Of a stretch of DNA of 32,297 bases, positions 7,078 through 22,426 are shown piece after piece (position 1 is the first letter of the stretch; every line of letters starts with the position of its first letter). The position numbers were made by a program, and so were the translations under genes. The stretch is from positions 1 to 32,297 of IMG/VR virus record IMGVR_UViG_3300037258_000340; one strand, 5' to 3'. The notes below the pieces were generated by a model. That model saw nothing but the letters and a program-made list of their open reading frames with translations, did no database searches and was not told the origin of the DNA. This DNA comes from a virus.

Positions 7078-7479
7078 TCAGCGATAGAAAGTGTGGTGTC
7101 CGATTTTTACGGTCTGCTTCATGGTCGCGGCCCAGGCCGGAGGGGGAATCGAATCGGCAAAGTAGTGGGTCGCGCCCAGTGTGATATCGGCTTCGCCGTT
7201 GTCGAAGATCAATTCGGCCAACTCGTGGCACTGTTCAAAAATCAGGTCTGGTTGCTTGGGAACGAGATCGAGCTGCGGATCTCCGACGGCCGTCATGGAA
7301 GAAAATTGCCACTTCGCATAAATAATTTCCGCCCAGCTTTTTCCTTCCAAGGTTGCGCGGTTGGCGATAACGTGCAGAACGCCACGGATGCCGTCCGCAC
7401 CTTCGCCGCGTGCTTCGCGCCATGCACACAACGCGGCGGCGGCGACACTGAAGTTGCGCCAGGTGAGATTGGCGATCAT
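7078..7479 (-). CDS. SleB-type cell wall hydrolase, probable phage endolysin
   Basis: 133 aa from ATG 7479. An upstream ATG at 7554 would overlap the preceding gene by 56 bases and adds a low-complexity tail, so I prefer 7479 although its ribosome-binding site is weak. The motif A-W-R-E-A-R-G-E-G (Glu at about residue 22), G-V-L-H-V-I-A-N-R and the later G-A-T-H-Y-F are diagnostic of the SleB/CwlJ (Hydrolase_2) family of peptidoglycan lytic transglycosylases. The conserved Glu is the presumed catalytic residue. No signal peptide is present, so export would depend on a holin, and a candidate lies immediately downstream. Domain length is normal for a single-domain phage lysin. Confidence 0.9.
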   Translation of the reverse strand: MIANLTWRNFSVAAAALCAWREARGEGADGIRGVLHVIANRATLEGKSWAEIIYAKWQFSSMTAVGDPQLDLVPKQPDLIFEQCHELAELIFDNGEADITLGATHYFADSIPPPAWAATMKQTVKIGHHTFYR

Positions 7480-7498
7480 GTCGAAAGGAAAACTTGGG

Positions 7499-7888
7499 CT
7501 AGCGCTGGTCTGGCTGCGGCTCGAAAAACTCAACCGGTGGCTGAATCCGTACACCTATCCGAAAGTTGCGGGTCTCCCCTTTGGCGTCCCCGGCGATCAG
7601 GAGAACCACGTAGCTGCCCGGCGTGACGAAACGGTGACTGGCGGTCGATTTCGTTCCGTTGTCGTAGACCGCGGGCTCGCCATTGGCGAAGCGCTCGAAG
7701 ATCCAGCCGAAGCGCACCGGGTGAAAATCTGGCGACTTTTCAAAATCGTAGGCAAAGGTGACAGTGGCGCCGGTTTGGCCGAGCAGAACGTGGGTTGCAT
7801 CGGATGAGGCGTGCACCGGGCCGCTATCTTTCGTTTGTGCGGAGGCGGCGACAGTAAAACAGCAGAGCAAAAGCAAAATGGTTTTCAT
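7499..7888 (-). CDS. Secreted small Ig/PKD-like domain protein
   Basis: 129 aa from ATG 7888. Residues 1-17 are a clear Sec signal peptide (M-K-T-I-L-L-L-L-C-C-F-T-V-A-A-S-A) with a predicted cut before Q. The mature part (about 110 aa, no Cys) alternates beta-strand-like stretches. It includes F-A-Y-D-F-E-K and H-R-F-V-T-P-G-S-Y-V-V-L-L, the typical ending of a PKD/Ig-like beta sandwich. It is placed between the last fibre-like gene and the endolysin. It could be a small exported adhesion or fibre-associated protein. It is one of five signal-peptide genes in this late region. Confidence 0.65.
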   Translation of the reverse strand: MKTILLLLCCFTVAASAQTKDSGPVHASSDATHVLLGQTGATVTFAYDFEKSPDFHPVRFGWIFERFANGEPAVYDNGTKSTASHRFVTPGSYVVLLIAGDAKGETRNFRIGVRIQPPVEFFEPQPDQR

Positions 7889-7898
7889 AATCTCGATT

Positions 7899-9770
7899 CT
7901 ATTTTGCGGCCACGGTCCAGTTCGTTCCATCGCAGTAGCCGAGAACGTGGTCTGATCCGCTGCCGGTGATGGTATCCCCCCACGTGTTCGTCGTTGAATC
8001 AGTGATGGCGCGCGTGCTGCCCTCAAGTCCAGACGCACAGGCTGGGAGATTCGCAAAAGCTGCTGCGGTCGATTGATATCCTGCCGCCGATTGAGAGCCG
8101 CCGGTGGTGTTGACGGTGGGCGCGGAGGCGCTGTCTCCCGCGAGTCCGGTATCGTTGACGATGGGAAACGGGCTATTAATGATGTCGTTGGTTGAAAATG
8201 AGGCGATCTTTCCCTGTGTGGCGCCTCCGGCGGTGCGGTAAAGATCACACCGCGCCGCGCCCAGGCAGGATGCCGAGGCAATGTCGACCTGCACATAGTT
8301 CGTCCCGCTGAGGGTTGCGTTGCCGGTGGTTGTGCTGTGCGTCGCGCCCGCAACCGTTCCCCCGTTTCCATCGACCGCCACCACCTGATAGGTATAGGTC
8401 GTCGAACCTGTTGTTCCGACCGGCGTAACCGCGACGAGCGCTGGTCCACTGAGCTGCGCGGTGGCGAACGAAGTCACCCCGGTGATTGAAGCCTTGAGAG
8501 GGAGAGCTGCAATACCGGCCGCGTCGATTTCGGGTTCCGACCATTTCCCCAAGGTGTGATTCGCAGCCGTGCTCACGGACCAAAAGCAGCGCGAGTTCGT
8601 GCCGGAGTTCCAGGTGGCATCGCAGAAAAACGCATCGTTTTCAGTGGGAAAGTATCCATCGAGTGCATAGAACGCTGTCCCCACGCCGTTAGTGGCGGCC
8701 CCCGTGGCGTCGATGGCGTAACCTTTTACCCCGGTGAAGCGAACCCCCCCGAGGTTCGAGGCGATAGAGTTTTGCGAAATTCCGGCCACCCCGATGAGCC
8801 CTTGGGACGAATACGGGGTACTGATTGCGTTGTCTTTTTCCGCATATCCCGTGATGGAAATACACCCGAAGCCGCCGCAGTCGAGCGTTCCAGCGGTGCG
8901 TTGGTCGGAAAGATCGGTGCGAATGACTCCGAATCCTGTTTCTGTTCCCGCCGTTCCGCTGTTGGTGGCGTTATTGTTGTCGATGAACGCTTCGCCGTAA
9001 ACCCCGAGGTACTGCTCCCACGTGGGGTTTGCCGTGGACTTCATGCTGATGCGGAAGCCGATGGCGCGGTCGTCCACGTTTGCCCCGGTCAGGGTTTGAT
9101 TTCCTGACATATGGGAGACCGAAAAGGCCGCATTGCGGATATAGTCCGGAACCGCGCCCGTGTCGTTCACAATCACCGGGCCGCAGAAGGAAAAATATCC
9201 TGCGGGCGTAACCCTTGGGCTGACCGTATCGACTCCCGCATAGCCGTAGTAAGTGCTGTCGCTTTTTTGCAGCCAGAGCGATGGGTTGACCGTGCCTCCA
9301 GAGGTGGGACAGAGATTGACGGCGCCGATCGGCGCGGTGCCCCCCGCGAGGCTGAAAATATTGGCGCCTGAACTGCCGCCGAGCGTCACCGTGTACGGAC
9401 CAAAGCAGGAAACCGTCCCTGAAATGCAAACCGTGTAATCGTAAGTCCCTGGGATCGCCCAGAAGCCGATGTTCCCCTGCGCATCTCCCGTGGTCTGGCA
9501 GGCGGATGGTTGCGGCTGCGGCGTATCTTGCGCGCCGTTCGGACAGGCGCTGCCGGTGCTCGTGTAAGTCGTCGCGTAGTTGGTGCAAGGAACCTGATTC
9601 GCCGGGGAATGACACACGGCGATGGTCGGAGAATTCGGCGGAACGTTCGCCACAAGAAACGGCGTCGAGGTGGTGGAGCTGACGCTCGGAAACGGCGCAT
9701 CGTAGCGCACATATTGCGCTTGGGCACAAATGGCCGCGAACAGCAGGGGAAGAATCCAAAGTTTTTTCAT
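7899..9770 (-). CDS. Large secreted-type fibre-like protein
   Basis: 623 aa from ATG 9770, with no good Shine-Dalgarno. It starts with a Sec signal peptide (M-K-K-L-W-I-L-P-L-L-F-A-A-I-C-A-Q-A, cut before Q). The mature part is Gly/Ser/Thr/Asn-rich and beta-like, with 16 Cys, several in close pairs (L-D-C-G-G-F-G-C, S-C-L-G-A-A-R-C). It ends with T-D-S-T-T-N-T-W-G-D-T-I and Y-C-D-G-T-N-W-T-V, a C-terminal pattern I associate with phage tail-fibre or receptor-binding proteins. A middle part has V-T-P-V-G-T-T-G-S-T-T-Y-T-Y-Q-V-V-A-V-D, a fibronectin/Ig-like strand pattern. Position after the spike candidate and before lysis genes supports a host-contact role. The signal peptide is unexpected for a virion protein assembled in the cytoplasm. 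Confidence 0.7.
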   Translation of the reverse strand: MKKLWILPLLFAAICAQAQYVRYDAPFPSVSSTTSTPFLVANVPPNSPTIAVCHSPANQVPCTNYATTYTSTGSACPNGAQDTPQPQPSACQTTGDAQGNIGFWAIPGTYDYTVCISGTVSCFGPYTVTLGGSSGANIFSLAGGTAPIGAVNLCPTSGGTVNPSLWLQKSDSTYYGYAGVDTVSPRVTPAGYFSFCGPVIVNDTGAVPDYIRNAAFSVSHMSGNQTLTGANVDDRAIGFRISMKSTANPTWEQYLGVYGEAFIDNNNATNSGTAGTETGFGVIRTDLSDQRTAGTLDCGGFGCISITGYAEKDNAISTPYSSQGLIGVAGISQNSIASNLGGVRFTGVKGYAIDATGAATNGVGTAFYALDGYFPTENDAFFCDATWNSGTNSRCFWSVSTAANHTLGKWSEPEIDAAGIAALPLKASITGVTSFATAQLSGPALVAVTPVGTTGSTTYTYQVVAVDGNGGTVAGATHSTTTGNATLSGTNYVQVDIASASCLGAARCDLYRTAGGATQGKIASFSTNDIINSPFPIVNDTGLAGDSASAPTVNTTGGSQSAAGYQSTAAAFANLPACASGLEGSTRAITDSTTNTWGDTITGSGSDHVLGYCDGTNWTVAAK

Positions 9771-9778
9771 CGGGATGG

Positions 9779-9804
9779 ATTGCGAAAAAAAAATTGCGAA
9801 AAAA
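9779..9804. repeat. Two direct copies of a 12-bp A-rich word between fibre genes
   Basis: ATTGCGAAAAAA occurs at 9779-9790 and 9793-9804, a 14-bp period, in the 42-bp gap between two leftward genes. On the transcribed strand this gives two T-runs (TTTTTTCGCAAT twice), including a run of nine T. No preceding hairpin is visible, so it is not a standard terminator. It may be a slippage product or an upstream T-rich element. Confidence 0.5.
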
Positions 9805-9812
9805 GGGAAAGA

Positions 9813-10949
9813 CTATTGCGGCAGCGTGATCATGCTCATGATCCAGCAGAATTGTCCCGCGGTGCCGGCGTCGGAGTTGACCGATAAAAAATCACCAGGC
9901 CCCAAGCCAGGTGTTGAGCCGGACTGACTCGACAGGGTTCCATTGGTCACCGTGAAGGCGGCCTGAAGTTGATTCCCCGCCCCCACAGTCCCCCCGGAGG
10001 GAACCGCATTCCAGGAATAAGTTCGCGTGCCTCCAGAGCTGTTCATGATGCGCAGCAAGGCGTTGGTACCGACTACGTTGCTGATGTAGCAGCGATGTCC
10101 GCTCGGGCAGGTGTAAATCGTGTTGTTGCCGGAGGCGAGGGCCGGAACGGACGGGCTGCTCAGGGGCTCGGTGTTGCTGAACTCGATGACATAACCATAG
10201 AACTGGAGGCCGGTGGCGCTGGTGAGTACGGAGAACGTTTGCCCCGCTTCGAGAATGGGATAAAAGTTGAAGGCGGTGGCGAATTGCGAGGTGCCGTTGT
10301 TGGTGTTCGCCGAGAGAGCATTCACCGGATAGTAGGTGCTTCCGATTTTCACTTCCGGTGTGGTGTTGACCGAGCCCCCGGAAAGATTGGTCACCGAGAG
10401 TGCGATGGTGCCCCGGTGCCCTGCGCTCACAGTGTAGAAATCGACATTGCCGGATGCGCTTTGCCCGGTATTGATGATCGCCGCTATTTTGGCGCTCGGG
10501 AGTGGAGGAAATCCCACTCCCGCCAAACCCGGTGGCAAAGTGTTAAAGCTGACTCTCGGCGTTGCATTGATATAGATCTGCGCGGTGTTGGTCACGCTCG
10601 CCCCGCACAGGATAAAAGTGTCATACCCTGTCACGTCTGCCCGGTACGTGCCGTTTGCCGTGATAGTCGACTGCGGTGTTGTCGAGGTGCTCGGGGTGAC
10701 CTGAAGATTGGCCGGCGTCTTTCCCTGAATCGAAGCCTCGGGCTGCATGGTTCCCGACCAGGCGCTGCCACTGCTGCTATTGACGACGGTAATGACTACC
10801 GTGGATTGGGCGGCGGCGCTGATGGTGAGGCATCCGGCCCCGGTAATGGTTCCCTGGGTGGTGACTTGAGCAAGGCCCGGCGGGGCGAGCCCGAGGGCTA
10901 GCGCCGCACATACCAACAAAAATCGCATTCGCGTTTTGAACAACTTCAT
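9813..10949 (-). CDS. Secreted-type structural/adsorption-like protein
   Basis: 378 aa from ATG 10949 with AAAAGGAG shortly upstream. A basic N-terminus and a hydrophobic core (M-K-L-F-K-T-R-M-R-F-L-L-V-C-A-A-L) end at G-L-A|Q, a Sec signal peptide of about 27 residues. The N-terminal mature domain contains W-S-G-T-M-Q-P-E-A-S-I-Q-G and N-L-Q-V-T-P-S. The C-terminal domain contains I-Y-T-C-P-S-G-H-R-C-Y-I and then F-L-S-V-N-S-D. Both patterns resemble uncharacterised beta-rich phage virion proteins. Five Cys in the mature part. The family has no name I can give with confidence. It probably contributes to tail fibres or adsorption, given the neighbours. Confidence 0.65.
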   Translation of the reverse strand: MKLFKTRMRFLLVCAALALGLAPPGLAQVTTQGTITGAGCLTISAAAQSTVVITVVNSSSGSAWSGTMQPEASIQGKTPANLQVTPSTSTTPQSTITANGTYRADVTGYDTFILCGASVTNTAQIYINATPRVSFNTLPPGLAGVGFPPLPSAKIAAIINTGQSASGNVDFYTVSAGHRGTIALSVTNLSGGSVNTTPEVKIGSTYYPVNALSANTNNGTSQFATAFNFYPILEAGQTFSVLTSATGLQFYGYVIEFSNTEPLSSPSVPALASGNNTIYTCPSGHRCYISNVVGTNALLRIMNSSGGTRTYSWNAVPSGGTVGAGNQLQAAFTVTNGTLSSQSGSTPGLGPGDFLSVNSDAGTAGQFCWIMSMITLPQ

Positions 10950-10976
10950 CGGCGGTTCTCCTTTTGAAATGAAAAG

Positions 10977-12554
10977 CTAGTTGCTGCTGAAAATGGCGAC
11001 GTCGAGCCACACCGGCTGGCCAAAGGCGGTGCCGTTGGTATGTTCCACAGTGGCTCCGATGGCGGTGACCGGATAGACTTTAAAGGTAAACGTCACACTC
11101 GCGCTGTTGGCGTAGGTGACCTGTGTGGTCGCGGCGCCATTGGCTCCGGTTTCGTTGCCGTCGGCAAAGTTGTTGGTCTCCGAGGAGGCGGCGAGGTTGG
11201 TTCCATCGGTGACATAGCCTTCCATTAGTCCGTGGCTCGTGGAGATGAAGTAATAGCCGTAGCTCACGAGCGCGCGGCAGGGGCAGCCGCTGCTTGGCAT
11301 AGTGACAGCCTGCGTGAGGATCGCGGTTTCTCCGCTGACGGGCACATCAGAACCGAGAGTCGTGTAATAGTGGGCGAGGATTGCGATGGCCGTACCGGAA
11401 TTGGCCGCGGTGCAGTATTCCTTTCCGGTGGAATCAAGTGCGCAGATTCCCTTGCCTGCCTTAAAGTAGGCGTCCTGCTGGCCCGAGCTCGGATTCGACG
11501 CGGGCGTGGTGAGCTCCGGGCCGCCGAGCGCATACGTTGTCGACGTCGAGGTGACCGGTAGACTGAACCCTCCGCTGCTGGCCGTGATCGGCGCGTCTCC
11601 GGAATCATCGGCGAGCCGGACATTGATCGCGGTGCCGTTGCGTTTGAGCCGTGGGAAGCTGGAAGTCTTTCCCCCGAGGAAAAGATCGGGCACCGCGCCG
11701 GTGGTTTCAAAGCCGCCCGCGAAGCTCCAGATTCCCACGTCGCTTCCATCTTCACTGATGCCCTGATCTCCGGAGTTGGCATTATTGCGCCAGTTGATGG
11801 CGTCGGTCTTGCAGGCGCGTAGAAGGCCTGCGCTCGCGGCATTGGCGCATCCCGAAACAATAGACCCCACGCTGATCTGCGGGCCATTGCCGATCACACA
11901 AGCTCCGGTGGCAACCAGTGTGCTTCCGTTCCACACAAAGAATTGCGTGGTGACCTGGTTCGCGCCCTGCCCGATGCCGCAACCGCCCACGGAATTCGCG
12001 GGCCAAGTGAAGCTGTGCCCGCCGGCGGCATCTTGTGTGATCTGAAACGCAATCCAGGCCGGTGGCAAAATACCCACGGCGGTAATGGGTTGCGCGACCG
12101 CATCACCGGTGAGAGTGATTTCAAACAATTGGTTCTGCGCCTGGATCGGAAACGCCGGGGTTGAGCTGTAAGTGACGTTCGTCGTGAGCAGCGTCAACCC
12201 GCCGCCGATCCCGTTCACCGTGTAAAGCGTGGCTCCCGAGCTGCAATTCGTGCCCCCCGACGATTTCACCCGGAAACTGTAAGCCACTCCCGCTTCGATC
12301 CAGATATTCGCCGAACCTCCGGCCGAGAGTACGACTGGATTGGCGTTCTGCGTGATTCCGGTCGAATCGGTAAAGGTGGCGAGCGGGGTCGTGGTTCCTG
12401 AGGCGTAGGTGAACACGCATCCGAAGGCCAGGGTGCGCCCTGAAGCGTCAAAGAACTGGAGCTGTGGGACGGGCGAGAGAACCACCGGAGTCTGCGCGAA
12501 TGCCGCAAGGCCCAGGAGCAAAACCGAGAACAGGCTGCAAAGTATTTTCTTCAT
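10977..12554 (-). CDS. Tail spike/fibre-like protein with head-binding-like N-domain behind a signal peptide
   Basis: 525 aa from ATG 12554, two bases after the previous stop. Residues 1-20 form a Sec signal peptide (M-K-K-I-L-C-S-L-F-S-V-L-L-L-G-L-A-A-F-A, cut before Q). Directly after it comes Q-F-F-D-A-S-G-R-T-L-A-F-G, then F-T-Y-A-S-G-T-T-T-P-L-A-T-F-T-D, then N-A-N-P-V-V-L-S-A-G-G-S-A-N-I-W-I. This is the well-known N-terminal module of phage tail fibres and spikes that joins them to the particle. The remainder is Gly/Ser/Thr-rich and beta-like with ten Cys in all. Its place right after the ejection-protein genes is the place of tailspike gene 9 in P22. A secretion signal in front of a virion-attachment domain is a contradiction worth testing. 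Confidence 0.75.
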   Translation of the reverse strand: MKKILCSLFSVLLLGLAAFAQTPVVLSPVPQLQFFDASGRTLAFGCVFTYASGTTTPLATFTDSTGITQNANPVVLSAGGSANIWIEAGVAYSFRVKSSGGTNCSSGATLYTVNGIGGGLTLLTTNVTYSSTPAFPIQAQNQLFEITLTGDAVAQPITAVGILPPAWIAFQITQDAAGGHSFTWPANSVGGCGIGQGANQVTTQFFVWNGSTLVATGACVIGNGPQISVGSIVSGCANAASAGLLRACKTDAINWRNNANSGDQGISEDGSDVGIWSFAGGFETTGAVPDLFLGGKTSSFPRLKRNGTAINVRLADDSGDAPITASSGGFSLPVTSTSTTYALGGPELTTPASNPSSGQQDAYFKAGKGICALDSTGKEYCTAANSGTAIAILAHYYTTLGSDVPVSGETAILTQAVTMPSSGCPCRALVSYGYYFISTSHGLMEGYVTDGTNLAASSETNNFADGNETGANGAATTQVTYANSASVTFTFKVYPVTAIGATVEHTNGTAFGQPVWLDVAIFSSN

Positions 12555-12556
12555 GG

Positions 12557-14506
12557 CTATCGTTTTGCCTTCTTCGCCAACGCCTGGCGCAGCGATTCCT
12601 GTAAGAGGTCGGTCAGGTCGCCGGAATCGGGCGCATCTGGGTTCGTTGCAGGCTGGGCGGCTTCCATCGGGATCGTGGCGGTAGCGGTGTTTCCGGAGCG
12701 CGCGGCGAGCGCGTTCTGTGCGGGCGGAGTATCTTCCGGCGTTGCGGATCGTAAAGAGGTAGGTGGATTCGCGGGAACAAACTTTCCGTTGACGACTTTG
12801 CCGAGCCTGGTTACGCCTGGACCGTCGCGCAGCACCCCCCAGGCTTCTCCTGGTGAGTTGGCATTTTCAAATGTTGTCACCATGTCCGGGGTAACGCCGC
12901 CGTGCACATAATGCTGCTTGTCGTTGGTGATGCTCTCGAAGATTTGGGTTTCGGGGTCGTATTTGTAGCCTGCGAGCGCTCTCGATTTTACTGGGGTGAA
13001 ATCTTCAGGAAGAGATTGCCGTGCAATGCTGGCCTTGATCTGATCTTTTAAAGGTGTGCCCGGCGTAGGCTCGAACGGTTTGACATCGAAAGCGTTATAG
13101 AGTTGTTTTTGAAGTGTGGCTGCCGATGTATCCCCAACTTTGGCGCGGGAGGCGAGCGCGTTGGCGGATTGCGTCTTCAGCTGCTGGGCGCGTTGCAGGA
13201 CGTCGGAGGCACTGGCATCTTTACCTAATTCCTCGCGTGCCTGCTGCACCATCGTGGTATCTTGCGAGGCTCCGGCGGCGGTGCCTCCAGTTTCAGGTGC
13301 GGTGCGAAGTGGAATTTGGGCGAGAGCGTTGGCTTGAGAGGGAGTGGGGGCCGCTTCAAACTGTGGAGCGGTCGACGGGCCACCTGCCACGCGCGAAGGC
13401 AGTCCTAAGTTTTCTCCTGGAATTCGGAGCTGTGGAAGGACTTCTTTCCCGAGAGCGTATCCTGCTCCAGCGCCGAGTTCTGCCGCGCCAGGTATGCCAG
13501 TCATGTGCCCGGCGGCCGCGCCAACGCTTGCACCTACCGATCCCGGTGCTTTGCTGAGAACCTGATTCGCGCCACGAACCACCGAGCGCACCGGTGCGCC
13601 CATCTTCGTGGGGCTGGTGACGGTATCTAAAACGTTTGGTGCGGCTTTTGCTAGTCCTTCGGTTCCAAGTGCGAGTAAGGCTTGCCCAGCTCCTTGTCCA
13701 GCCGTTTCCTGTGCCACCTTCGCATACGTTCCCGCCGGATCGGGCGATTGGTTGATATCGTGAATCGCGCTGGCGACCTGCGAAGCTTGTTCTGCGGTGT
13801 GTCCCATGCCGCGCAACATGCGGTAGATCGGCAGTGCGCCAGGGCCAGCGGCAAAGATGGCTTTTTCGGTGGCATCTTGCGGGTCGGTGAAAAGCTGAGA
13901 TGTTCCCTTTGCTGCATCGCGCAGGCCGCGCCCTACGCTCTGCAAGCCAGATTCGGTGGCCGCCCAGTGATCGGTAAGCGGGATTTCGCGGTCAAGGATG
14001 CCGGGTTGATCCTTATCAGGAATGCTTTTCCCCGAGGATTCTCCTTCTGTGGCGAAGGCTGAGGCATCGAAGGTTGGCGCTGTTCCCCCTTCAGTCGCGA
14101 ATGCTTTCGCATCAAAAGTTGGGGCCGAAGAATGTGCTGCAACCGTGCGGATTTCCGACGGCAAAATCTGCGCCGCTGCCGGGTTGCTTACATCGGCGGG
14201 CATCTTGCCCGTGAAGTTCTGCTGTTGAAAACTCACCCCATCTGGCAAGCGCGTGACCGGAACCCCAGAGGCGGTGTCGTCGGAAACGACGCGGTTGTCG
14301 GGATTCGCGAACACCGGCCCGGCAAAATCGGTGGGCACGCCGCGTTGCTGCGAGTGCTCATAGGTTGCCGCTTCCGCATCGGTGGCTGGGCGCACGAATC
14401 CGAGGGCCCGACGCTCCTCGGGCGTCAGGTCGTCGTACTTTTTGCGGAGCACGCTCAGTGGAAGGTTGGCGAGCGATGCGGGTAGCTGGAGTTGTGGCGA
14501 AGCCAT
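12557..14506 (-). CDS. Large ejection (internal virion) protein, P22 gp16-like position
   Basis: 649 aa from ATG 14506, directly abutting the previous stop (TAAATG). P22 gp16 is 609 aa and sits at the same place, last of three ejection proteins. The sequence is Ala/Gln/Pro-rich and I see no Cys. Near residues 125-155 there is a tandem repeat, A-P-T-F-D-A-(K/S)-A-F-A-T-E-G twice. A Gly/Ala-rich hydrophobic centre (G-S-V-G-A-S-V-G-A-A-A-G-H) could insert in membranes. Toward the C-terminus, Y-K-Y-D-P-E-T-Q-I-F and Y-V-H-G-G-V-T-P-D-M and N-S-P-G-E-A-W resemble a KTSC-like domain. Role inferred: ejected with DNA to form part of the trans-envelope conduit. Confidence 0.65.
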   Translation of the reverse strand: MASPQLQLPASLANLPLSVLRKKYDDLTPEERRALGFVRPATDAEAATYEHSQQRGVPTDFAGPVFANPDNRVVSDDTASGVPVTRLPDGVSFQQQNFTGKMPADVSNPAAAQILPSEIRTVAAHSSAPTFDAKAFATEGGTAPTFDASAFATEGESSGKSIPDKDQPGILDREIPLTDHWAATESGLQSVGRGLRDAAKGTSQLFTDPQDATEKAIFAAGPGALPIYRMLRGMGHTAEQASQVASAIHDINQSPDPAGTYAKVAQETAGQGAGQALLALGTEGLAKAAPNVLDTVTSPTKMGAPVRSVVRGANQVLSKAPGSVGASVGAAAGHMTGIPGAAELGAGAGYALGKEVLPQLRIPGENLGLPSRVAGGPSTAPQFEAAPTPSQANALAQIPLRTAPETGGTAAGASQDTTMVQQAREELGKDASASDVLQRAQQLKTQSANALASRAKVGDTSAATLQKQLYNAFDVKPFEPTPGTPLKDQIKASIARQSLPEDFTPVKSRALAGYKYDPETQIFESITNDKQHYVHGGVTPDMVTTFENANSPGEAWGVLRDGPGVTRLGKVVNGKFVPANPPTSLRSATPEDTPPAQNALAARSGNTATATIPMEAAQPATNPDAPDSGDLTDLLQESLRQALAKKAKR

Positions 14507-16045
14507 TTAAATCGGATCGGCGGCGGTGACTTTCCCGTTTTGGTCTACAGACTTGACGCGGTAGGGGTGACCTCGCCATTGAATGGTTTGACCTACACTA
14601 TAGGAACCCATACCGGAATTCTCCCCGCCCACCTCGGCACCATATTGCCGTTTCAAAAACTGGTTCGTCCCGATTCGAGAATCGCGTTGCGATAGCACAG
14701 CGTTGCGAGTGGCGGCAATGGCCTGTGCTCTCATTTCTGGACTTGCTGCTTTACTGAATAACGTGAGGGCTGCGTCTCTCGCGTGATCTGAGGCAGTTCC
14801 CCCGCCCATCACTTTCCCGTAGTCATCCGCAGCGCCGAGCGCAGTGGCTGCATAACCTGCAAGCGGGCCTTTCCCGCGCGCCAACTCTTGCCAGTCGTCA
14901 ATGGTGTTTAAGACAGGAAAGTCATGCTCCGGGATGTTCTTTCCTAGCTTCTCTAATTGGTCGAGTGTTCCGCCTTTAGTGATGAGCGAATTCGCCGAGC
15001 CGAAGAACTGGTTGGCGGAAGGTGATTTCGCGACCTGTTCTGCAATCACCTCGTCGGCGGGGTTGTAGGTGGAATTTATTTTTTGAGCGGCGGTGACGGC
15101 TTTTGTGATGAACTGCGGGGTGGTACCGCGCGACTTTAGATCGGCTAGCGTCAGATCACCTTTCGCGAGCATTTCACCAGCGACGGCGGGATCGCCTTGG
15201 GCCGCCTCTTGTCGAGCGATTGCGTCGGCTCTTGCGGTAGCCGCTTTCGCTGGAATTTCCGCATTGGCGACACTTGCGGCTTTTGCCGCCGGATAGTCAG
15301 CGGCGGTCTTGCTGGGATTCGCAGCGAGCCACGCCGATAGTGCTGCCTCGTCGGGCGTCCCCCGCAAATTCTTTATGATTTCGGAATGAGTTTGCGCGTC
15401 TTTGAGAGCTTGCGCGTGCATTCCCAGCGGGATTTCGTATTGCGTGAGGGTGTCATTGTCTGGAGCTTGGGTTGGGAACGAGCGGATGTCTTCGCCCATC
15501 TGAGCGGCTTTCATCAGGGTTGTTTGATAGGCGGTTTGCCGCTTTGCCGGATCGGTGAGCGGGCGGATGTCTTCAAGCATCCCGAAGATTTTCCCGTTGC
15601 GTTCATCTTGAAGCTTGATTTGTGCTTCCGAGGCGTTGGCGAGATCGGTGACGCCTTTGGCATAGTTCTGTTGCACGGACGCAAGGGTCTGGGGTGAAAC
15701 CTTTCCAGTTTCAGAGAGATGTTGAACCCATCCCTGCATGTCGAAGCCGGTCGGCTTTCCATTGTCATCGCGGGTCACGAACTGCGGAGCAGCGCCCATC
15801 ATGGCCTGCTGCTCTTGAAGCTGGATCTGACGCTGCTGATTTTCTTGCTGTGTGCCTTGCAGTGTCGCTTGTGCCTGCTCCTGTGCTACCGGAAACGCTT
15901 GCTGCTCTTGTTGTGTGCGTTGCTGTTGGGCTGCAAGCTGGGCCTGCTGCATCTGCAGCTGCGCCGAGCGCGCGTACTCTTCGAGCGGAGTGCGCGGTGC
16001 GGGTGCGGTCTGGATCGCGAGCGCGGGTAAAGGAATCGATCCCAT
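14507..16045 (-). CDS. Ejection (internal virion) protein, P22 gp20-like position
   Basis: 512 aa from ATG 16045 (P22 gp20 is 471 aa). The first 100 residues are Gln/Ala-rich and likely long helices (Q-L-Q-M-Q-Q-A-Q-L-A-A-Q-Q-Q), typical of phage internal proteins. The middle is Ala-rich helical. The end has G-Q-T-I-Q-W-R-G-H-P-Y-R-V-K-S-V-D, a small SH3-like beta tail. I see no Cys and no signal peptide. It lies between the gp7- and gp16-like genes. Sequence-level homology to gp20 is not evident to me, so the call rests on composition and gene order. Confidence 0.6.
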   Translation of the reverse strand: MGSIPLPALAIQTAPAPRTPLEEYARSAQLQMQQAQLAAQQQRTQQEQQAFPVAQEQAQATLQGTQQENQQRQIQLQEQQAMMGAAPQFVTRDDNGKPTGFDMQGWVQHLSETGKVSPQTLASVQQNYAKGVTDLANASEAQIKLQDERNGKIFGMLEDIRPLTDPAKRQTAYQTTLMKAAQMGEDIRSFPTQAPDNDTLTQYEIPLGMHAQALKDAQTHSEIIKNLRGTPDEAALSAWLAANPSKTAADYPAAKAASVANAEIPAKAATARADAIARQEAAQGDPAVAGEMLAKGDLTLADLKSRGTTPQFITKAVTAAQKINSTYNPADEVIAEQVAKSPSANQFFGSANSLITKGGTLDQLEKLGKNIPEHDFPVLNTIDDWQELARGKGPLAGYAATALGAADDYGKVMGGGTASDHARDAALTLFSKAASPEMRAQAIAATRNAVLSQRDSRIGTNQFLKRQYGAEVGGENSGMGSYSVGQTIQWRGHPYRVKSVDQNGKVTAADPI

Positions 16046-16052
16046 AGAGTTC

Positions 16053-16886
16053 CTATTGGTACTGCTGCAGGAGTCCGGACGGAAGTTGTGGGGCGGTGGG
16101 CGGCGGCGAAAGCTGCGAAATCACGGGGCCGATCTCTGCTGGGGTATATCCCCCGGTCGGGGGAGCCACTCCAAGATTTGGATTTGAGAGCGAGTTGAAA
16201 ATGTTCTGATCGTTCTCGTAGTTGGCGAAGTTCGTGAGGCCCTGTCCTGCCCCGTTGGCTAATCCTGCGTAGCCGGAGGCTCGCGCGGCAGCGGCGTTGT
16301 TGATCTGTTGCGCCTGGGAATTCGCTCCCCCCACATAGATATTCGCCAGGTTGTTGGCTGCGGCCTGCCCTTGCTGTCCGATCTGGCCTGCGACGTTGGC
16401 CCCGAGATTCGCCGTGTTTGAGAGAATCCCGTATTGGTTCATGTACTGCTGCATCGCATTGTTGTAGACCTGCTGGTAGTTCTGCTCGCCGAGGCCCTGC
16501 CCATACTGTTCAAGCGCCTTGCCCTGAGTGCCGGAGTAAAGATTGCCGGTGGCCGCTGCCGACTGGTCGAGAGCCTGCGTGCCTTGCTGCAAAGCAAACT
16601 GATAGCCGGGATTCTGTTCGGCCTGCGCCAGCGTCGGCGCCTGGAAGGGTGTGTTGAGAAAGTTGGCGAGCGAATTCGCGCCTTGCGTGCCGACATTTAA
16701 AAACGGCTGCTCGTTTTGCTGCTGCTGCTGGGTTTCCTGAGTTTGCGCGGCGACCGCTGCCTGCTGGTTCTGCTTCTGGAGCTGCAGGGCTTGTTGCGCC
16801 GCTCTCGATTGCGAGCTTCCGGCGGCGAGCGAGCCGATCCCGCTGACAATTCCGCCGGCCAGACTTCCAATAGCTGCTATGGGCAT
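16053..16886 (-). CDS. Ejection/DNA transfer protein, P22 gp7-like
   Basis: 277 aa from ATG 16886 (P22 gp7 is 229 aa). It begins with a Gly/Ala/Ile-rich hydrophobic segment (I-G-S-L-A-G-G-I-V-S-G-I-G-S-L-A-A-G). A Gln-rich helix (Q-Q-A-L-Q-L-Q-K-Q-N-Q-Q) follows, then many Asn/Gln/Gly, including G-T-Q-G-A-N-S-L-A-N and A-A-N-N-L-A-N-I-Y-V-G-G. This start and composition are characteristic of gp7-type DNA transfer proteins of P22-like phages. No Cys. The gene overlaps the GNAT gene upstream by ten bases and is followed after seven bases by the gp20-like gene. Likely role: ejected into the host envelope during infection. Confidence 0.7.
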   Translation of the reverse strand: MPIAAIGSLAGGIVSGIGSLAAGSSQSRAAQQALQLQKQNQQAAVAAQTQETQQQQQNEQPFLNVGTQGANSLANFLNTPFQAPTLAQAEQNPGYQFALQQGTQALDQSAAATGNLYSGTQGKALEQYGQGLGEQNYQQVYNNAMQQYMNQYGILSNTANLGANVAGQIGQQGQAAANNLANIYVGGANSQAQQINNAAAARASGYAGLANGAGQGLTNFANYENDQNIFNSLSNPNLGVAPPTGGYTPAEIGPVISQLSPPPTAPQLPSGLLQQYQ

Positions 16887-17344
16887 GAGAGAACTTCCGG
16901 TTTACTGATTCCTAGACAGAACTGGTCGAGCAGAACGCCACCGCGGGAGAACGATTTAGGGTTAATGCCGTACTCGGTCAAGCCGCCTTGTTTCGCAAAG
17001 CGCAGCGCCAAACGGTTGTCGCTCGGCACATCGGTGATGAGCCGTTGGCAGCGGGTGTTTTGCCACAGCCACGCGATAAATTCCCGGCTGGCTTGTTTGG
17101 CGCGGGGTCCCCAGGTGCTGGGCAGAAGGCAGGTGTGCACCTTCCAGCAGACCGCATTTTCCTCGATCAATCCGAAGTAGCCGAGCAACTCTTCTCCGTC
17201 CCGCACTTCGATAAACGTGGCCTCTTTCGGCGGCTCATAGGCTGCGGGCGGCGGCGAGAAGTCGTCACTCATTCGGGGATAGAGCTGCGGATCAGTGATG
17301 ACCCGGCGAATCGCATCCCGGTCGGTGGCGAGCGAGAAGTTCAT
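16877..17344 (-). CDS. GNAT-fold protein in P22 gene 14 position
   Basis: 155 aa from ATG 17344, which overlaps the previous stop by four bases. A GTG 15 bases earlier is less likely. The middle, G-Y-F-G-L-I-E-E-N-A-V-C-W-K-V-H-T, and the end, V-P-S-D-N-R-L-A-L-R-F-A-K-Q-G-G, are the strand-and-helix signature of GNAT acetyltransferases. P22 carries a gene of about this size (gene 14, a head assembly protein of the DUF2824 type, which to my knowledge is GNAT-like) between genes 26 and 7. The same location here strongly suggests an equivalent. Whether it binds acetyl-CoA is unclear: I do not see an unambiguous Q/RxxGxG/A loop. Confidence 0.75.
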   Translation of the reverse strand: MNFSLATDRDAIRRVITDPQLYPRMSDDFSPPPAAYEPPKEATFIEVRDGEELLGYFGLIEENAVCWKVHTCLLPSTWGPRAKQASREFIAWLWQNTRCQRLITDVPSDNRLALRFAKQGGLTEYGINPKSFSRGGVLLDQFCLGISKPEVLSCP

Positions 17345-17670
17345 CCGATCCGCCACCACTTTGAGGCATCGCTTTTGATCCGCAGATGGTCGTACAGCGC
17401 GGTCAGCGTATAAGGGCCGCCTTCGACTCCATTCAGCGTGAACACATTGGCATCGCTCGATGTCTTGAGGTAGCTGATTTCCTGATTCTGGTTGTTCTGA
17501 CCAGACGTTCCGCCGGGATCGGGCGCGTCCTCCGCATAATCCCCTGCTGAGGTGTCGACTTTTTTAAGCGGCAACTGCTTCTGCAGGCTGAAGAGATAGA
17601 GAGTCTGCGGATTCGACGCATTCTGCCCGCGCAGCGGCGGCGGGAAGAGTGTGGTGGTTTCGGTGCTCAC
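17341..17670 (-). CDS. Small virion-region protein at the tail-needle position
   Basis: 109 aa from ATG 17670, overlapping the gp10-like stop by four bases. The N-terminal half is rich in Pro/Thr/Gln and Asp. The C-terminal part (F-T-L-N-G-V-E-G-G-P-Y-T-L-T-A-L-Y-D) is beta-like and ends with two Trp (S-K-W-W-R-I-G). In P22 this position is gene 26 (tail needle, 233 aa, long trimeric coiled coil). This protein is half the length and shows no heptad pattern, so it is not a recognisable needle. It might plug the tail differently or be an adaptor. Confidence 0.6.
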   Translation of the reverse strand: MSTETTTLFPPPLRGQNASNPQTLYLFSLQKQLPLKKVDTSAGDYAEDAPDPGGTSGQNNQNQEISYLKTSSDANVFTLNGVEGGPYTLTALYDHLRIKSDASKWWRIG

Positions 17671-19133
17671 GCCCCCACCAGCTCGAGCGAATCTTCCGAC
17701 TTCACATAGCCGTCCGCGATGCGCCAGGGGATCGGATCAGCGCCGGAGATTTCCCAAACTCTGCGCCGCGCTCGTCCGAGCTGCACCTTGCGCGCGCGGG
17801 CGTTGTACTCACCAGCCATGCCGCAGTTGAGGATGAAGGTCGATGTCCAGGTCTTCGTGCCATCGTTCGACCAGCGCAGCATGATCTGTGGGGCACGCGG
17901 CTGCCCGTCGCCGTCAAGCAACGGAGGTTGCGGCCCGAGTCCGGGTTCGATATCAATTTCGAGCTCGGAGAAGAAGAGCCACTTATTCTCCTTAGATATT
18001 GTGGGGGAACGCCGCACCCAGCGGAGCGGGCCGCCCATGTCGCTGTAGATTGAAGTTGACTGCTGATAGAGGTTGCCGGAGGCCCAATCCCCGACCAGAT
18101 GCTTCCCGAAGACGAACATATGGGACTGCGAATGATCCGCCTCGTAAGTGCCCGAAATCGGGTTAAAGAATCCGCGCTGGTGCCACTGATTTTCGGCAAC
18201 ATCGTAGACCCAGGTCGCATTCGGAAATTTCAGAACCCAGAAGCTATGGCCTTGTTCTTGGTAGGTGTAGCCGATGACGCTGTTGGCGGTGAGGTTCGGA
18301 TAGTTTTGCCAGGCGAACTCGACCGCATGCGTCGAAACCCGCTGCTCGCCATAACCCACAGCCCTTCGCGCTACCAGCCACCCACGCTCATCCTGATCCA
18401 GCCAGAAAATCGAGTTATCGAGTTGCACGGTGGCGAAGGCCGCACAGGAGGCCGCGCCAAATTCCATGAACGCGCCCTGGATGGGGATAAACACCGGATT
18501 CCCGGCCCCGGCGTTGTAGTAGGCGGCAGTTTTCTTCGCGGAGAAAAACCAGATCTCGCGGTGATCGCAGATCATCGACGTAAAGTTGTCAGGGAAAAGC
18601 GAAACCGTCGAGATATTCAATCCGTCCCAGGTGGTGAAGTCCTCCAGATTCGATTGCTGGAAGGTGTGCGAGGTGAGCAGTGTCGCAATGCCGTAGCCGT
18701 CGGTGAACCCGATCTGCATGACCGCGCCGTTGAACTGGCTCATGTCGACCGGAGCGAGCACGTTGGTCGCGAGGGTGAAGACGAAGAGCGCCCCGTTGTT
18801 CAGAATTAAGAGCTGGGTTTCGTTCGAGATGATCTGATTGGGCGAGGCGGGCATCGCGCCCAGGCTTCCGCGGTTGACCTTTGAGCCGTCGGCAAACAAC
18901 TCCCACAAATTGGAAGCCGCCACAAATGCCCGGCCATTTACGGGATATTGCGCGGTGATCCCCGCCTCCGGCAGCTGATAGGCGATCCTTTTTCCAGGCG
19001 CGAGAATCAGCGCCTTGCGCACCTTGGCGCCGATCGACTCCTGCGTCTCCGGGTAGAGATTCATAGTCCACTCGGCGTCGAGGTTCGGCGAGACGGCCTG
19101 GTAGGTGCCGTTGATGAGGTTGAAAGTGCTCAT
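17667..19133 (-). CDS. Packaged DNA stabilization / tail hub protein, P22 gp10-like
   Basis: 488 aa from ATG 19133 (P22 gp10 is 472 aa). The start N-L-Y-P-E-T, then A-P-G-K-R, then R-A-F-V-A-A-S-N-L-W-E-L, Y-G-I-A-T, F-S-A-K-K-T-A-A-Y-Y, then I-F-W-L-D-Q-D-E-R-G and the late W-V-Y-D-V-A-E-N-Q-W-H-Q-R-G are hallmarks of the phage stabilisation family (gp10). That family forms the beta-propeller-like hub under the portal/gp4 ring and seals packaged DNA. Three Cys, no signal peptide. It lies directly after the gp4-like gene, as in P22. Confidence 0.9.
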   Translation of the reverse strand: MSTFNLINGTYQAVSPNLDAEWTMNLYPETQESIGAKVRKALILAPGKRIAYQLPEAGITAQYPVNGRAFVAASNLWELFADGSKVNRGSLGAMPASPNQIISNETQLLILNNGALFVFTLATNVLAPVDMSQFNGAVMQIGFTDGYGIATLLTSHTFQQSNLEDFTTWDGLNISTVSLFPDNFTSMICDHREIWFFSAKKTAAYYNAGAGNPVFIPIQGAFMEFGAASCAAFATVQLDNSIFWLDQDERGWLVARRAVGYGEQRVSTHAVEFAWQNYPNLTANSVIGYTYQEQGHSFWVLKFPNATWVYDVAENQWHQRGFFNPISGTYEADHSQSHMFVFGKHLVGDWASGNLYQQSTSIYSDMGGPLRWVRRSPTISKENKWLFFSELEIDIEPGLGPQPPLLDGDGQPRAPQIMLRWSNDGTKTWTSTFILNCGMAGEYNARARKVQLGRARRRVWEISGADPIPWRIADGYVKSEDSLELVGA

Positions 19134-19151
19134 GAAAAAAGTGAGAGAGTT

Positions 19152-19958
19152 TTAGCGCGGCCCGAGTCCCGGTGGCCCACCGGTTCCCCAGTTGAAGTAG
19201 CCCCGGAGCTGTCCGGTGCGCGGCATACCGTAGTCGCGGGTGGCGATCCGCGGCGAGAGATCGTTATTGCCGAAAACGGCCTTGTTGGCTTCGCGGGCTT
19301 TTTCGACGAGCAACGGGTTCGCTTGCTTCGAGCCGCCAGGGCAGAGTGCCAACGCGAGGGTGAATGTCAGCGCCGCGCGGTAGCCTTGCGGCATCGTGCC
19401 CCCCGCGCCCGGCCCGGCCAGCGGATCGTTGATCTGGTCGTACTGCGCAAGCGGCAGCCACAATTCCAGCCGCACATTGTGTCCCACCTGCGGCACCGGC
19501 CAAAACCACAAATTCCCATTCGGCCACGACGGTTCGTAGTAGAGATCGGTTGGTACGGTGGAGGTGATTTGTTTGGTCTGCTGTGCCGCCCACCATTTGT
19601 TGTCGCGGATGGCGATGGGCAAATCCACCAGCTCCGTCGATCCATTTAAGAGCAAATTGGCGCTTACGATTTCGACCGGCCGGGCAACCTCGGGGAAGGT
19701 TGCAGCTTCCGGGCCGATGGTATGCGGGGAAAGGTTCGGCACCAGCGTGTAGACCGCAAACACGTGCGCGAACACATAGGCCCGCCGCGCCGCCCACACA
19801 TCGAGCACGTAGTTTAACTGCCGGAACGCCCATTGCCCGGTTTCGCCGTCCGGTACTTCGCCCGACGCGAGCATGTTGTTCTCGATCAAGGCATCGGTGA
19901 TGATGTCGAGCGCCGTGTAACGTAGCGGCGTTTCGCTGGTTGGCGGGGTGATGGGCAT
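19152..19958 (-). CDS. Head completion / tail accessory factor, P22 gp4-like
   Basis: 268 aa from ATG 19958 (P22 gp4 is 166 aa, so this one carries about 100 extra C-terminal residues). The N-terminal half has D-I-I-T-D-A-L-I-E-N-N, G-E-V-P-D-G-E, then L-N-Y-V-L-D-V-W-A-A, and later H-T-I-G-P-E-A, R-P-V-E-I-V-S-A and P-I-A-I-R-D-N-K-W-W. These match the gp4-type layout, in which a GE turn is followed by an L-N-x-x-L-D-x-W helix and a T-I-G strand. It binds below the portal and begins tail assembly. The neighbour on the downstream side is the gp10-like gene, as in P22. Confidence 0.85.
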   Translation of the reverse strand: MPITPPTSETPLRYTALDIITDALIENNMLASGEVPDGETGQWAFRQLNYVLDVWAARRAYVFAHVFAVYTLVPNLSPHTIGPEAATFPEVARPVEIVSANLLLNGSTELVDLPIAIRDNKWWAAQQTKQITSTVPTDLYYEPSWPNGNLWFWPVPQVGHNVRLELWLPLAQYDQINDPLAGPGAGGTMPQGYRAALTFTLALALCPGGSKQANPLLVEKAREANKAVFGNNDLSPRIATRDYGMPRTGQLRGYFNWGTGGPPGLGPR

Positions 19959-19961
19959 GAA

Positions 19962-20300
19962 TTACTCGGCGGTGGCTTCTGGCTTTGCTGCTTTGGTCTG
20001 GAAGACTTGTTTCGGCGCTTTTTTCTCGGGGGCCTGCCCACCTTTTGCCAAAACCTTCTCCTCTTCCTCTTTGCTTTTCACCACGACGCCGCCCGCGAGG
20101 CGCTTCGGGTATTCCTGAAAGCTGTAGGGTTCTGCCGGCGGTTTATTGCGGTCCTTCGGCGCGGGCTTCTGCACTTTTGAAAATTGCATGACTTGTTCCT
20201 CGATTTTCTGCTGGCGGAGTGTGACATCGCGCGGAATGCCTTCAATATCGAAGGTCACCGGCCAGCGCGAGCGCATCCGCAGGCGTTCATTGATTGGCAT
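19962..20300 (-). CDS. Small Lys/Glu-rich protein of the head-tail region
   Basis: 112 aa from ATG 20300. The first 45 residues are ordered-looking (W-P-V-T-F-D-I-E-G-I-P-R-D-V-T-L). From residue 45 it is rich in Lys, Pro, Glu and Ala and probably disordered. Function unknown. The start follows a strong terminator-like hairpin by only 16 bases and has no Shine-Dalgarno, so expression would require read-through or coupling from the upstream transcript. Confidence 0.6.
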   Translation of the reverse strand: MPINERLRMRSRWPVTFDIEGIPRDVTLRQQKIEEQVMQFSKVQKPAPKDRNKPPAEPYSFQEYPKRLAGGVVVKSKEEEEKVLAKGGQAPEKKAPKQVFQTKAAKPEATAE

Positions 20301-20316
20301 GGAAAACGATAGGCAT

Positions 20317-20352
20317 AAAAAAAAACAGGGGCAGGCAGGTTTTCCTGCCCCC
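20317..20352 (-). terminator. Rho-independent terminator after the secreted-type gene
   Basis: On the transcribed (minus) strand a GC-rich stem (GGGGCAGG pairing with CCTGCCCC, positions 20328-20335 and 20344-20351, eight-base loop) is followed by TG and nine T (20317-20325). It begins 25 bases after the stop of 20376-21113. It would stop transcription before gp4, gp10, ejection and fibre genes unless antitermination or a promoter inside acts. Confidence 0.8.
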
Positions 20353-20375
20353 GTGATTCAGGGAGAAAGAGGTTC

Positions 20376-21113
20376 TTAGTAGCTCGCGTACCACTTCGCT
20401 GCGTTGGGCTCATAGGTCCAACACTGCGCGCGATTCGCCGTCGCCGTGGTCGTAGTTCCAATGTTGTTGCCTGCCGTGGTCTGGTAGGCCCCATCGGGTA
20501 CGACGCAGAAGCTATTGCCGGACTTCGGGTCAAACCCGAGCGGATTTGTCCACGAAGTGATGGTATTGGTGCCGGTGATATGGAACAACCGCCCGGAAGG
20601 CAAGGTCGCACCAGCCACCGAGGCGACAGCAGCGGTGGTTCCAGCGGGAGCGCTGTTATTGCCCCAGCCCGGTACCCACTGGTTGGTGAGCGTCGAGCAT
20701 AGCCACTGGTTTCCGTTCTTTGTATTCACGTAGGGGGTGTAAAGCGTGTTCCCCGGCGTGCACATACCAGAAGGATCGCCCGCCGCGTTCACTCCGAAAG
20801 GAATCGGATTAAACGCAGCGGCGGGGCCGAGCAGCACTCCGGCTCCCGAGAGGTGATGCGCCACCGGCGTGCCCTGATAGCCGCGGAAAACTTTGATCGT
20901 GGTGCCATTGACGGCATTCACGAACATCGCTTCCTTGTCTACGAAGAGCAGCGTCTGGTTGGCGACCACTCCGGTGGCCGAGGTGAGCACCACGGTTTGC
21001 GAAGAGTTAGAGGTGACCGCCGACGCGAGGGTGGTGCCGGTCAGCGAGGTTTGCGCGGAGGCGCTGAGCGCGAGAGCCGCGAAGAGAGAAAGAATCGAAA
21101 TAAGTTTTTTCAT
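20376..21113 (-). CDS. Secreted-type head decoration/fibre-like protein directly after the coat gene
   Basis: 245 aa from ATG 21113. Residues 1-20 are a Sec signal peptide (M-K-K-L-I-S-I-L-S-L-F-A-A-L-A-L-S-A-S-A, cut before Q). The mature part has T-L-L-F-V-D-K-E-A-M-F-V and V-F-R-G-Y-Q-G-T-P-V-A-H-H. That FVDxE...RGxxGTxAxxH pattern is one I associate with small phage structural proteins encoded after the capsid gene. It ends W-T-Y-E-P-N-A-A-K-W-Y-A-S-Y, and the mature part has four Cys. An upstream hairpin and a downstream terminator bracket the gene, as in a moron. Likely a particle or host-surface decoration. Confidence 0.7.
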   Translation of the reverse strand: MKKLISILSLFAALALSASAQTSLTGTTLASAVTSNSSQTVVLTSATGVVANQTLLFVDKEAMFVNAVNGTTIKVFRGYQGTPVAHHLSGAGVLLGPAAAFNPIPFGVNAAGDPSGMCTPGNTLYTPYVNTKNGNQWLCSTLTNQWVPGWGNNSAPAGTTAAVASVAGATLPSGRLFHITGTNTITSWTNPLGFDPKSGNSFCVVPDGAYQTTAGNNIGTTTTATANRAQCWTYEPNAAKWYASY

Positions 21114-21178: not shown

Positions 21179-22426
21179 TTAGGCTCCCAGCACCCCGACA
21201 GCCCCATTGTCCTGATAGAGGTTGCCGAAGCCGCCGAGCGAATCGAAGCGGTGAATGTTGAGGGAGTGGAACGGGTCCCAGGCGTGCACGTAGCGGATGG
21301 CGATCCCGGTGTCGGGGTCCATCTTCTGTGAGCTCTCTTCCACCGCATCCGGCAGGTAGAGCTTCGCACCGACCATGGCAAACGCGGAGGGCGTGAGCCC
21401 GAGGCCGATGGTGCCGCTTTTCGACTGTCCGTCGACCATGTTAGTTCCGGGGAAGAGAGCCAACTGGTCGCCGTTGTTGTTGAGTGCATCGACATTCTGA
21501 TACTGAGAACCCGGTCCGTAGATCGGGGGCAGGATCGAGATGACGTCGGTGCCGCCGGTGAGGGTGTAGTCCTGGGTCACGGTGAAGGTGGCGAGGTTGT
21601 TGGACCCGCCCACCACGCGCCGCGTTCTCGGGTTAACGAAGTGCACCGCGCCGATGGAGATTTTGTCTCCCTGCTTAATGGTGTCTCCGTTCGATCCCTG
21701 AATACTAATGGAGCTCCCCGTCTGGTTGGCGCCGACCATGGTGACGCCGGTCTGCGAAGCCCAAACACCGGAGGTGTGGACGTAGAGCGACTGCGACTCG
21801 AAGAGATCGAAGTTTTTCAGGATGCCGATGTAGCCTTCTTTGAACATCCGGGAAACTTCATCTCCGGGGTTGAGGAAAGCCTCGATCACCGGAGCCAGTG
21901 CATTCATCATGTCGGATGAAATACATAGGGACCGCTTTCCACCGAGCGCCGCTTTTTGCAGCAAGCGGGACTTGGCGAGATCGTAGGTCGTGAGCGACGT
22001 GGGATCGGTGCCGAGCTGTCCCACGATGGTTGAGATGTTGTTGGTGGCGAACAGCGCGGCGCGAGAATCCCACTCCTGCGCCATCTGCTTGCCGGCGGGC
22101 TCGAAGTACATGCGATCGAGCTCTTCTTCGGAACGTTCCAGCTTGAGCGCTACTTCCATGTCATCCCACTCGAATGGAATCTGCACCCATTGATCGAGCG
22201 TGATGGTGGTGATTTGCTGGTTGATGCCTTGCGGCGCGTAGCCGGGGCCGTCGATGGTTAAGAAGGACTGGGGAAATTTCACGTCGATGGTCGAGCCCGG
22301 CGCGAACTCCCGGCGGAAGTCCTTCTCCCAGTCGCGGTTGAAATATTCCGCAACTGTAAGGTTGTTGGTGAGGAACCCCAGCACTTTGAGGCTCACCCAA
22401 CTGGTATTTTCAAATTGGTTTGCCAT
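21179..22426 (-). CDS. Major capsid protein, P22 coat family
   Basis: 415 aa from ATG 22426 with AAGGAA upstream (P22 coat is 430 aa). The sequence begins with a leader helix, then has R-D-W-E-K-D-F and A-P-G-S-T-I-D-V-K-F-P, and Q-Q-I-T-T-I-T-L-D-Q-W-V. It continues with the D-D-M-E-V-A-L helix and the E-P-A-G-K-Q-M-A-Q-E-W-D segment. These are typical of the P22-type coat, an HK97 fold with an extra I-domain. It follows the scaffold gene directly, as in P22. One Cys, no signal peptide. It forms the icosahedral shell. Confidence 0.9.
   Translation of the reverse strand: MANQFENTSWVSLKVLGFLTNNLTVAEYFNRDWEKDFRREFAPGSTIDVKFPQSFLTIDGPGYAPQGINQQITTITLDQWVQIPFEWDDMEVALKLERSEEELDRMYFEPAGKQMAQEWDSRAALFATNNISTIVGQLGTDPTSLTTYDLAKSRLLQKAALGGKRSLCISSDMMNALAPVIEAFLNPGDEVSRMFKEGYIGILKNFDLFESQSLYVHTSGVWASQTGVTMVGANQTGSSISIQGSNGDTIKQGDKISIGAVHFVNPRTRRVVGGSNNLATFTVTQDYTLTGGTDVISILPPIYGPGSQYQNVDALNNNGDQLALFPGTNMVDGQSKSGTIGLGLTPSAFAMVGAKLYLPDAVEESSQKMDPDTGIAIRYVHAWDPFHSLNIHRFDSLGGFGNLYQDNGAVGVLGA

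Follow-up and report, generated by a model that had tools for sequence, protein, structure and literature searches.

Where in the cell does a tailed phage make the proteins with which it adsorbs? The question is raised by the window, by which we mean the whole stretch of DNA analysed here, a complete virus record of 32,297 bases from a soil phage, in which fibre-like genes of a P22-like late region appear to encode export signals. In the textbook view, tailed-phage assembly is cytoplasmic. As read in the window, the late genes lie on the minus strand in a P22-like order that starts with terminase, portal, scaffold and coat genes, a leadered gene (20376-21113) and connector genes with Hc3, and continues with a DUF2824/GNAT gene, three ejection-type proteins, the tailspike (10977-12554), three further leadered genes and a Hydrolase_2 endolysin.

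An earlier reading from sequence only had claimed that five of these ORFs begin with a Sec leader cut before Gln, and all five are indeed present, on the minus strand, with leaders that end in small residue-any-Ala and are followed by Gln. They encode a coat-adjacent fibre/decoration-like protein of 245 aa (20376-21113; leader 21054-21113, MKKLISILSLFAALALSASA^Q, with Gln21 at 21051-21053), the tailspike of 525 aa (10977-12554; leader 12495-12554, MKKILCSLFSVLLLGLAAFA^Q), a fibre-like protein of 378 aa (9813-10949; leader about 10869-10949, MKLFKTRMRFLLVCAALALGLAPPGLA^Q), a Cys-rich fibre-like protein of 623 aa (7899-9770; leader 9717-9770, MKKLWILPLLFAAICAQA^Q) and a PKD-domain protein of 129 aa whose PKD match lies just below the Pfam cut-off (7499-7888; leader 7838-7888, MKTILLLLCCFTVAASA^Q). 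The leaders have the N-region, hydrophobic core and -3/-1 residues of Sec/signal peptidase I pre-proteins as judged by hand-made rules only, which look for a positive N-region, an uncharged hydrophobic run and small residues at -3/-1. For four of the five leaders the score is clear and the cut falls ahead of Gln; the leader of 9813-10949 passes the rule, but the rule's cut falls earlier and its GLA^Q site is a by-eye reading. Gln stands at +1 in all five by reading. The P22-family coat protein (21179-22426, minus strand; Pfam P22_CoatProtein, E 1.9e-11) and the three ejection-type proteins (12557-16886, minus strand), which serve as context and control, are leaderless. In the genes checked, the junction showed no internal start with a Shine-Dalgarno from which translation would leave out the leader, and internal starts bypassing the leader were rejected on that ground.

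The cysteine counts reported earlier are also correct: the mature parts of 7499-7888, 7899-9770, 9813-10949, 10977-12554 and 20376-21113 contain 0, 16, 5, 10 and 4 Cys, the ejection proteins none and the coat one. Because several leaderless genes are Cys-rich as well (25744-26331 with six, 27048-28049 with seven, 16877-17359 with five and terL with six), it is the leader, and not Cys content, that marks the gene set. Two of these leaderless genes, both on the minus strand, deserve mention in their own right. The product of 16877-17359 is a DUF2824/GNAT-type acetyltransferase; the gene sits in the late region where P22 has gene 14 and is kept in about 12 relatives. The gene at 27048-28049, between the terminase and portal genes, has a weak right-handed beta-helix match and is conserved in four related loci (L021, L022, L030 and L042); its product is a possible second adsorption or structural protein.

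The sequence-only reading had pointed to a particle-binding module in the tailspike 10977-12554, and the segment right after the leader (about 12167-12494) does match a PDB tailspike head-binding domain (7eeq_A, "Tailspike head-binding domain", E 6.7e-8) as well as the tail spike proteins 9vyg and 9vyh (9vyg, E 3.6e-7). Isolated phages with related coats have the same module, and in all six that were read (PBR31, DSL-LC05, P26218, X14, BA3 and ctNMl277) it begins at the initiator Met with no leader, so the window leader sits exactly in front of the module. In the standard family the module stands at the very N-terminus; in the window and its relatives a leader of 16-37 residues precedes it, and we therefore class the protein as a leadered variant and not as a standard P22-like member. 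Neither the window nor its relatives hold a second head-binding-domain gene, the sole such gene in each genome being the leadered one. In the related loci L006-L008, about residues 2-234 of the tailspike are matched and the C-terminus is not. A matched N-terminus with an unmatched C-terminus is the usual pattern of receptor-binding proteins. The predicted structure of 10977-12554 is a poor model. The N-terminal part of the PBR31 tailspike has been described as apparently a virion-binding domain (PMC10975493). We infer that 10977-12554 is present on virions.

Are the leaders maintained? Relatives gathered by coat-protein searches comprised 23 IMG/VR loci and two MAG contigs, and the question of whether homologues of the mature domains also carry signals can be answered in the affirmative for the coat-adjacent and tailspike families. 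A homologue of 20376-21113 occurs in 18 non-redundant loci, nearly always directly after the coat gene, and has a leader in every one (17 of 18 by the automatic rule, with L043 seen by eye). Tailspike homologues are leadered in 9/9 cases by eye and in 7/9 by the rule, which misplaced the cut in two of its seven hits (L006 and L030). Coat, portal, Hc3, terminase, ejection and other late genes of the relatives gave 0/151 by the same rule; the difference between the leadered families and the other late genes is large (Fisher p 9e-27), in a comparison of relatives that are not independent and whose relatedness is uncorrected. Within the coat-adjacent family, identity is 31% in the leaders versus 49% in the adjacent mature domain, and Gln+1 is kept in 17/17 homologues. 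Leader sequence that drifts while its signal character stays constant reads as the mark of selection for a working signal. The proteins belong to phage and not host families, as the earlier reading took them to; their homologues are phage genes that occupy corresponding places in the operon, and host-gene capture was for this reason rejected as a general explanation. The relatives hold further leadered ORFs (L025 5528-8848, L030 3593-4243 and L018 4785-5321), one of them of 1106 residues and located between the portal and scaffold genes. Part of 7899-9770 is common to the larger phages L150-L154, which are mostly Tunturi_1-like. L155 (5932-8181) and L156 (5815-8176) hold three genes in tandem, apparently without leaders, that are related to 9813-10949 in its C-terminal domain.

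For the leadered proteins other than the tailspike, it is position and fold that suggest a role in attachment. The model of 20376-21113 (pLDDT 77) is mostly beta, and an invariant Cys pair (C118 and C139) lies in the mature part of the family. Foldseek matches among viral proteins include tail fibres, and in one case, from an uncultured Caudovirales phage, the relative is matched over nearly its full length; matches in the PDB are weak only (the AP22 tailspike and the JBD30 baseplate). Among isolated phages 20376-21113 has no match. Gene position and fold together point to a head or neck fibre. Profiles of the domain also match leaderless proteins in other genomes, so the leader looks like an addition. 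The A1 profile contained no stretch conserved enough for collection scans.

The trait is wider than the window phage, since unrelated phages of Acidobacteriota have it too. The isolated acidobacterial podovirus Tunturi_1 has leaders on gp12, gp13, gp14 (tail spike), gp16 and gp17 (virion structural protein; predicted mature start QTCTQ), these annotations being computational and not from mass spectrometry; the four large leadered proteins contain 10 to 32 Cys, and no leader stands on the portal, the coat or the other structural genes that were read. Tunturi_2 has the same leader pattern, and in the siphovirus Tunturi_4 gp113 and gp114 are leadered. Tunturi_3, whose host strain is that of Tunturi_1 and Tunturi_2, has no leaders among the late genes read; leaders as a general host-imposed property were rejected on this basis. 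Genome surveys found head-binding modules leadered in three of four phage-like cases in Acidobacteriota (G001, G243 and G283; not G195) and leaderless in 6/6 cases from five genomes of Pseudomonadota. One of the acidobacterial cases, a 6.4 Mb chromosomal contig (G243), holds a phage remnant in which two Cys-free genes of internal-protein type are followed by three leadered genes in a row. Proteobacterial phages, too, can have a single leadered gene close to the tailspike, directly downstream of it in PBR31 (gp35; L033 5142-5951, with a PHROG tail fibre match) and P26218 (gp24; L035 4715-5224).

Gln at +1 was seen in 15/50 predicted leaders of the acidobacterial chromosome G243 versus 4/30 in Pseudomonadota samples. 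Leaders as a general trait of phages of Gln+1 hosts were rejected, since the Bacteroidetes-infecting Cellulophaga phage phi14:2 has none among 21 MS/MS-annotated structural proteins and Bacteroides phage B124-14 none on its tail fibre or capsid proteins. P22 and N4 have no leaders on structural genes; the sole leadered ORFs in the two are the endolysin of N4 and an unannotated one. As for the host of the window phage, the coat-protein genome scan led to two MAG contigs, one labelled Acidobacteria (L043) and one Betaproteobacteria (L042). The latter (JAHFRL010000053.1) is a contig of the window's phage clade, its MAG (G002) has a leadered head-binding module, and its binning may reflect mis-binning or a wider host range. 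With the relatives pointing to Acidobacteriota and one MAG to Betaproteobacteria, the former is the probable host.

We suggest that the leaders are working Sec signals and that the fibres mature in the periplasm and join the particle at lysis, a proposal towards which we lean by a little. Under this proposal, the receptor-binding tailspike, the coat-adjacent fibre/decoration protein and the neighbouring fibre-like proteins would be made as pre-proteins and carried over the inner membrane by the host Sec machinery; signal peptidase I would cut ahead of Gln, with pyroglutamate as the probable new N-terminus, and the mature parts would fold in the periplasm, a compartment that permits disulphide formation. 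The cytoplasm would, as usual, be the place of assembly for heads, portal, ejection proteins and DNA, and at or after lysis the pre-folded tailspikes and fibres would dock via the head-binding domain, completing the virion. Export itself, as predicted from sequence comparison, is strongly supported; cleavage, disulphides and docking are what we infer to follow from it. Tailspikes of P22 bind finished heads last, in vitro too, which makes late docking feasible. Two points count against the proposal: Tunturi_3, leaderless on the same strain, indicates that the host does not require leaders, and tailspikes, once exported, could attach to receptors of the very cell that makes them.

The sequence-only reading had left three options: exported virion fibres, secreted products such as decoys, or N-termini that stay uncleaved. 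The first is now favoured over the second because the only head-binding-domain gene is leadered and its domain is conserved, and the third is disfavoured because Gln+1 is invariant. The second option, in which the leadered proteins are exported to the periplasm, surface or medium and serve as receptor-masking or superinfection-exclusion factors, adhesins or polysaccharide-active enzymes built on fibre folds, nevertheless has substance, and as a general reading we hold it doubtful. Leaders alone predict export, and it is well established that phage exclusion proteins can carry export signals. Among bacteria, a secreted enzyme whose fold resembles that of tailspikes exists in Pantoea WceF (PMC7949094). 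Against this, a head-binding domain would be useless to a free product, the genome holds no other, leaderless tailspike with that domain, and the N-terminal match to L006-L008 follows the usual pattern of receptor-binding proteins. The PKD gene (7499-7888) is a separate case: it is without a particle-binding module, it found no relatives among the viral contigs searched, and for it a secreted non-virion role is at least as likely as a virion role. Placed at the border of the fibre and lysis genes, it might be lysis-related. The endolysin gene (7078-7479, minus strand) lies directly downstream of the leadered cluster, and at 7499-7554 on that strand the PKD gene runs into the longer endolysin ORF (7078-7554), over its upstream start.

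It is unlikely, in our view, that the N-terminal segment is not for export at all and is kept as a hydrophobic anchor or assembly element, or trimmed in the cytoplasm. Such a role would agree with the normal construction of tailed-phage virions in the cytoplasm, and an annotation note records that a cytoplasmic protease removes 20 N-terminal residues of P22 gp7; however, small -3/-1 residues with an invariant Gln+1 fit signal peptidase I and not an anchor, the leader otherwise drifts freely, and the same architecture stands on unrelated fibre genes. Slightly more improbable still are two pools of tailspike, one exported and acting on the envelope and the other left in the cytoplasm by slow or skipped targeting and built onto particles, an arrangement that would reconcile the leaders with cytoplasmic assembly and in whose favour there is also the lack of a clear Shine-Dalgarno at some starts, but for which the cases checked offer no Shine-Dalgarno-backed internal start for a leaderless form and in which the untargeted pre-protein would retain its leader ahead of the head-binding domain.

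Completion of the virion by periplasmic fibres remains our preferred reading. Leadered tailspikes, found clade-wide and repeated in unrelated cultured phages, would show that production of key adsorption proteins beyond the inner membrane is possible, and would bear on the origin of disulphide-bonded fibres, on self-adsorption avoidance and superinfection blocking, and on the reasons for which their production in the cytoplasm of E. coli may fail. They also carry a warning for annotation, namely that a signal peptide does not exclude a virion protein. Should the proteins be confirmed on virions, assembly in two compartments would stand as a new principle, and the idea is testable on phages already in culture (Tunturi_1, _2 and _4, grown on Tunturiibacter). 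We consider the chances evenly balanced that there is a wider group of Acidobacteriota-centred tailed phages with split assembly, arisen in several unrelated lineages, whose cytoplasmic, DNA-filled particles are completed at lysis by Sec-exported, (pyro)Gln-trimmed, disulphide-bonded proteins.

How does this compare with known systems? In the open-access literature searched, mainly titles and abstracts, Sec leaders are nowhere reported as a class feature of the tailspikes or fibres of tailed phages, and a text search of the Tunturi paper met no discussion of signal peptides. Filamentous phages (Inoviridae) make their virion coat proteins with Sec leaders, insert them in the membrane and assemble them during extrusion. 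The window proteins, with a virion role deduced from the genes, would share the leaders; unlike the Inoviridae, the window phage is a tailed, lytic-release phage with a P22-type head, portal, terminase and endolysin, and it has no small membrane-inserted coat with extrusion machinery. SAR endolysins are phage-encoded Sec substrates. The T4 antiholin RI is a leadered accessory protein of a tailed phage (PMC8385771); both resemble the window proteins as Sec substrates but are lysis or exclusion proteins, and not fibre genes with a particle-binding domain. The Q-rule, in which the cut of signal peptidase I exposes Gln, is described for host proteins of Bacteroidetes (PMC5837995, PMC10653852); the exposed Gln is the likeness, and the difference is that the likely host here belongs to the Acidobacteriota. 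The closest systems are the P22/Sf6-type tailspikes, including the TSP of Xanthomonas phage PBR31 and the structures 7eeq and 9vyg, which share with the window the head-binding module, the P22-type coat and a similar succession of ejection proteins and tailspike. Those read here begin at the module, whereas the window clade adds a Sec leader.
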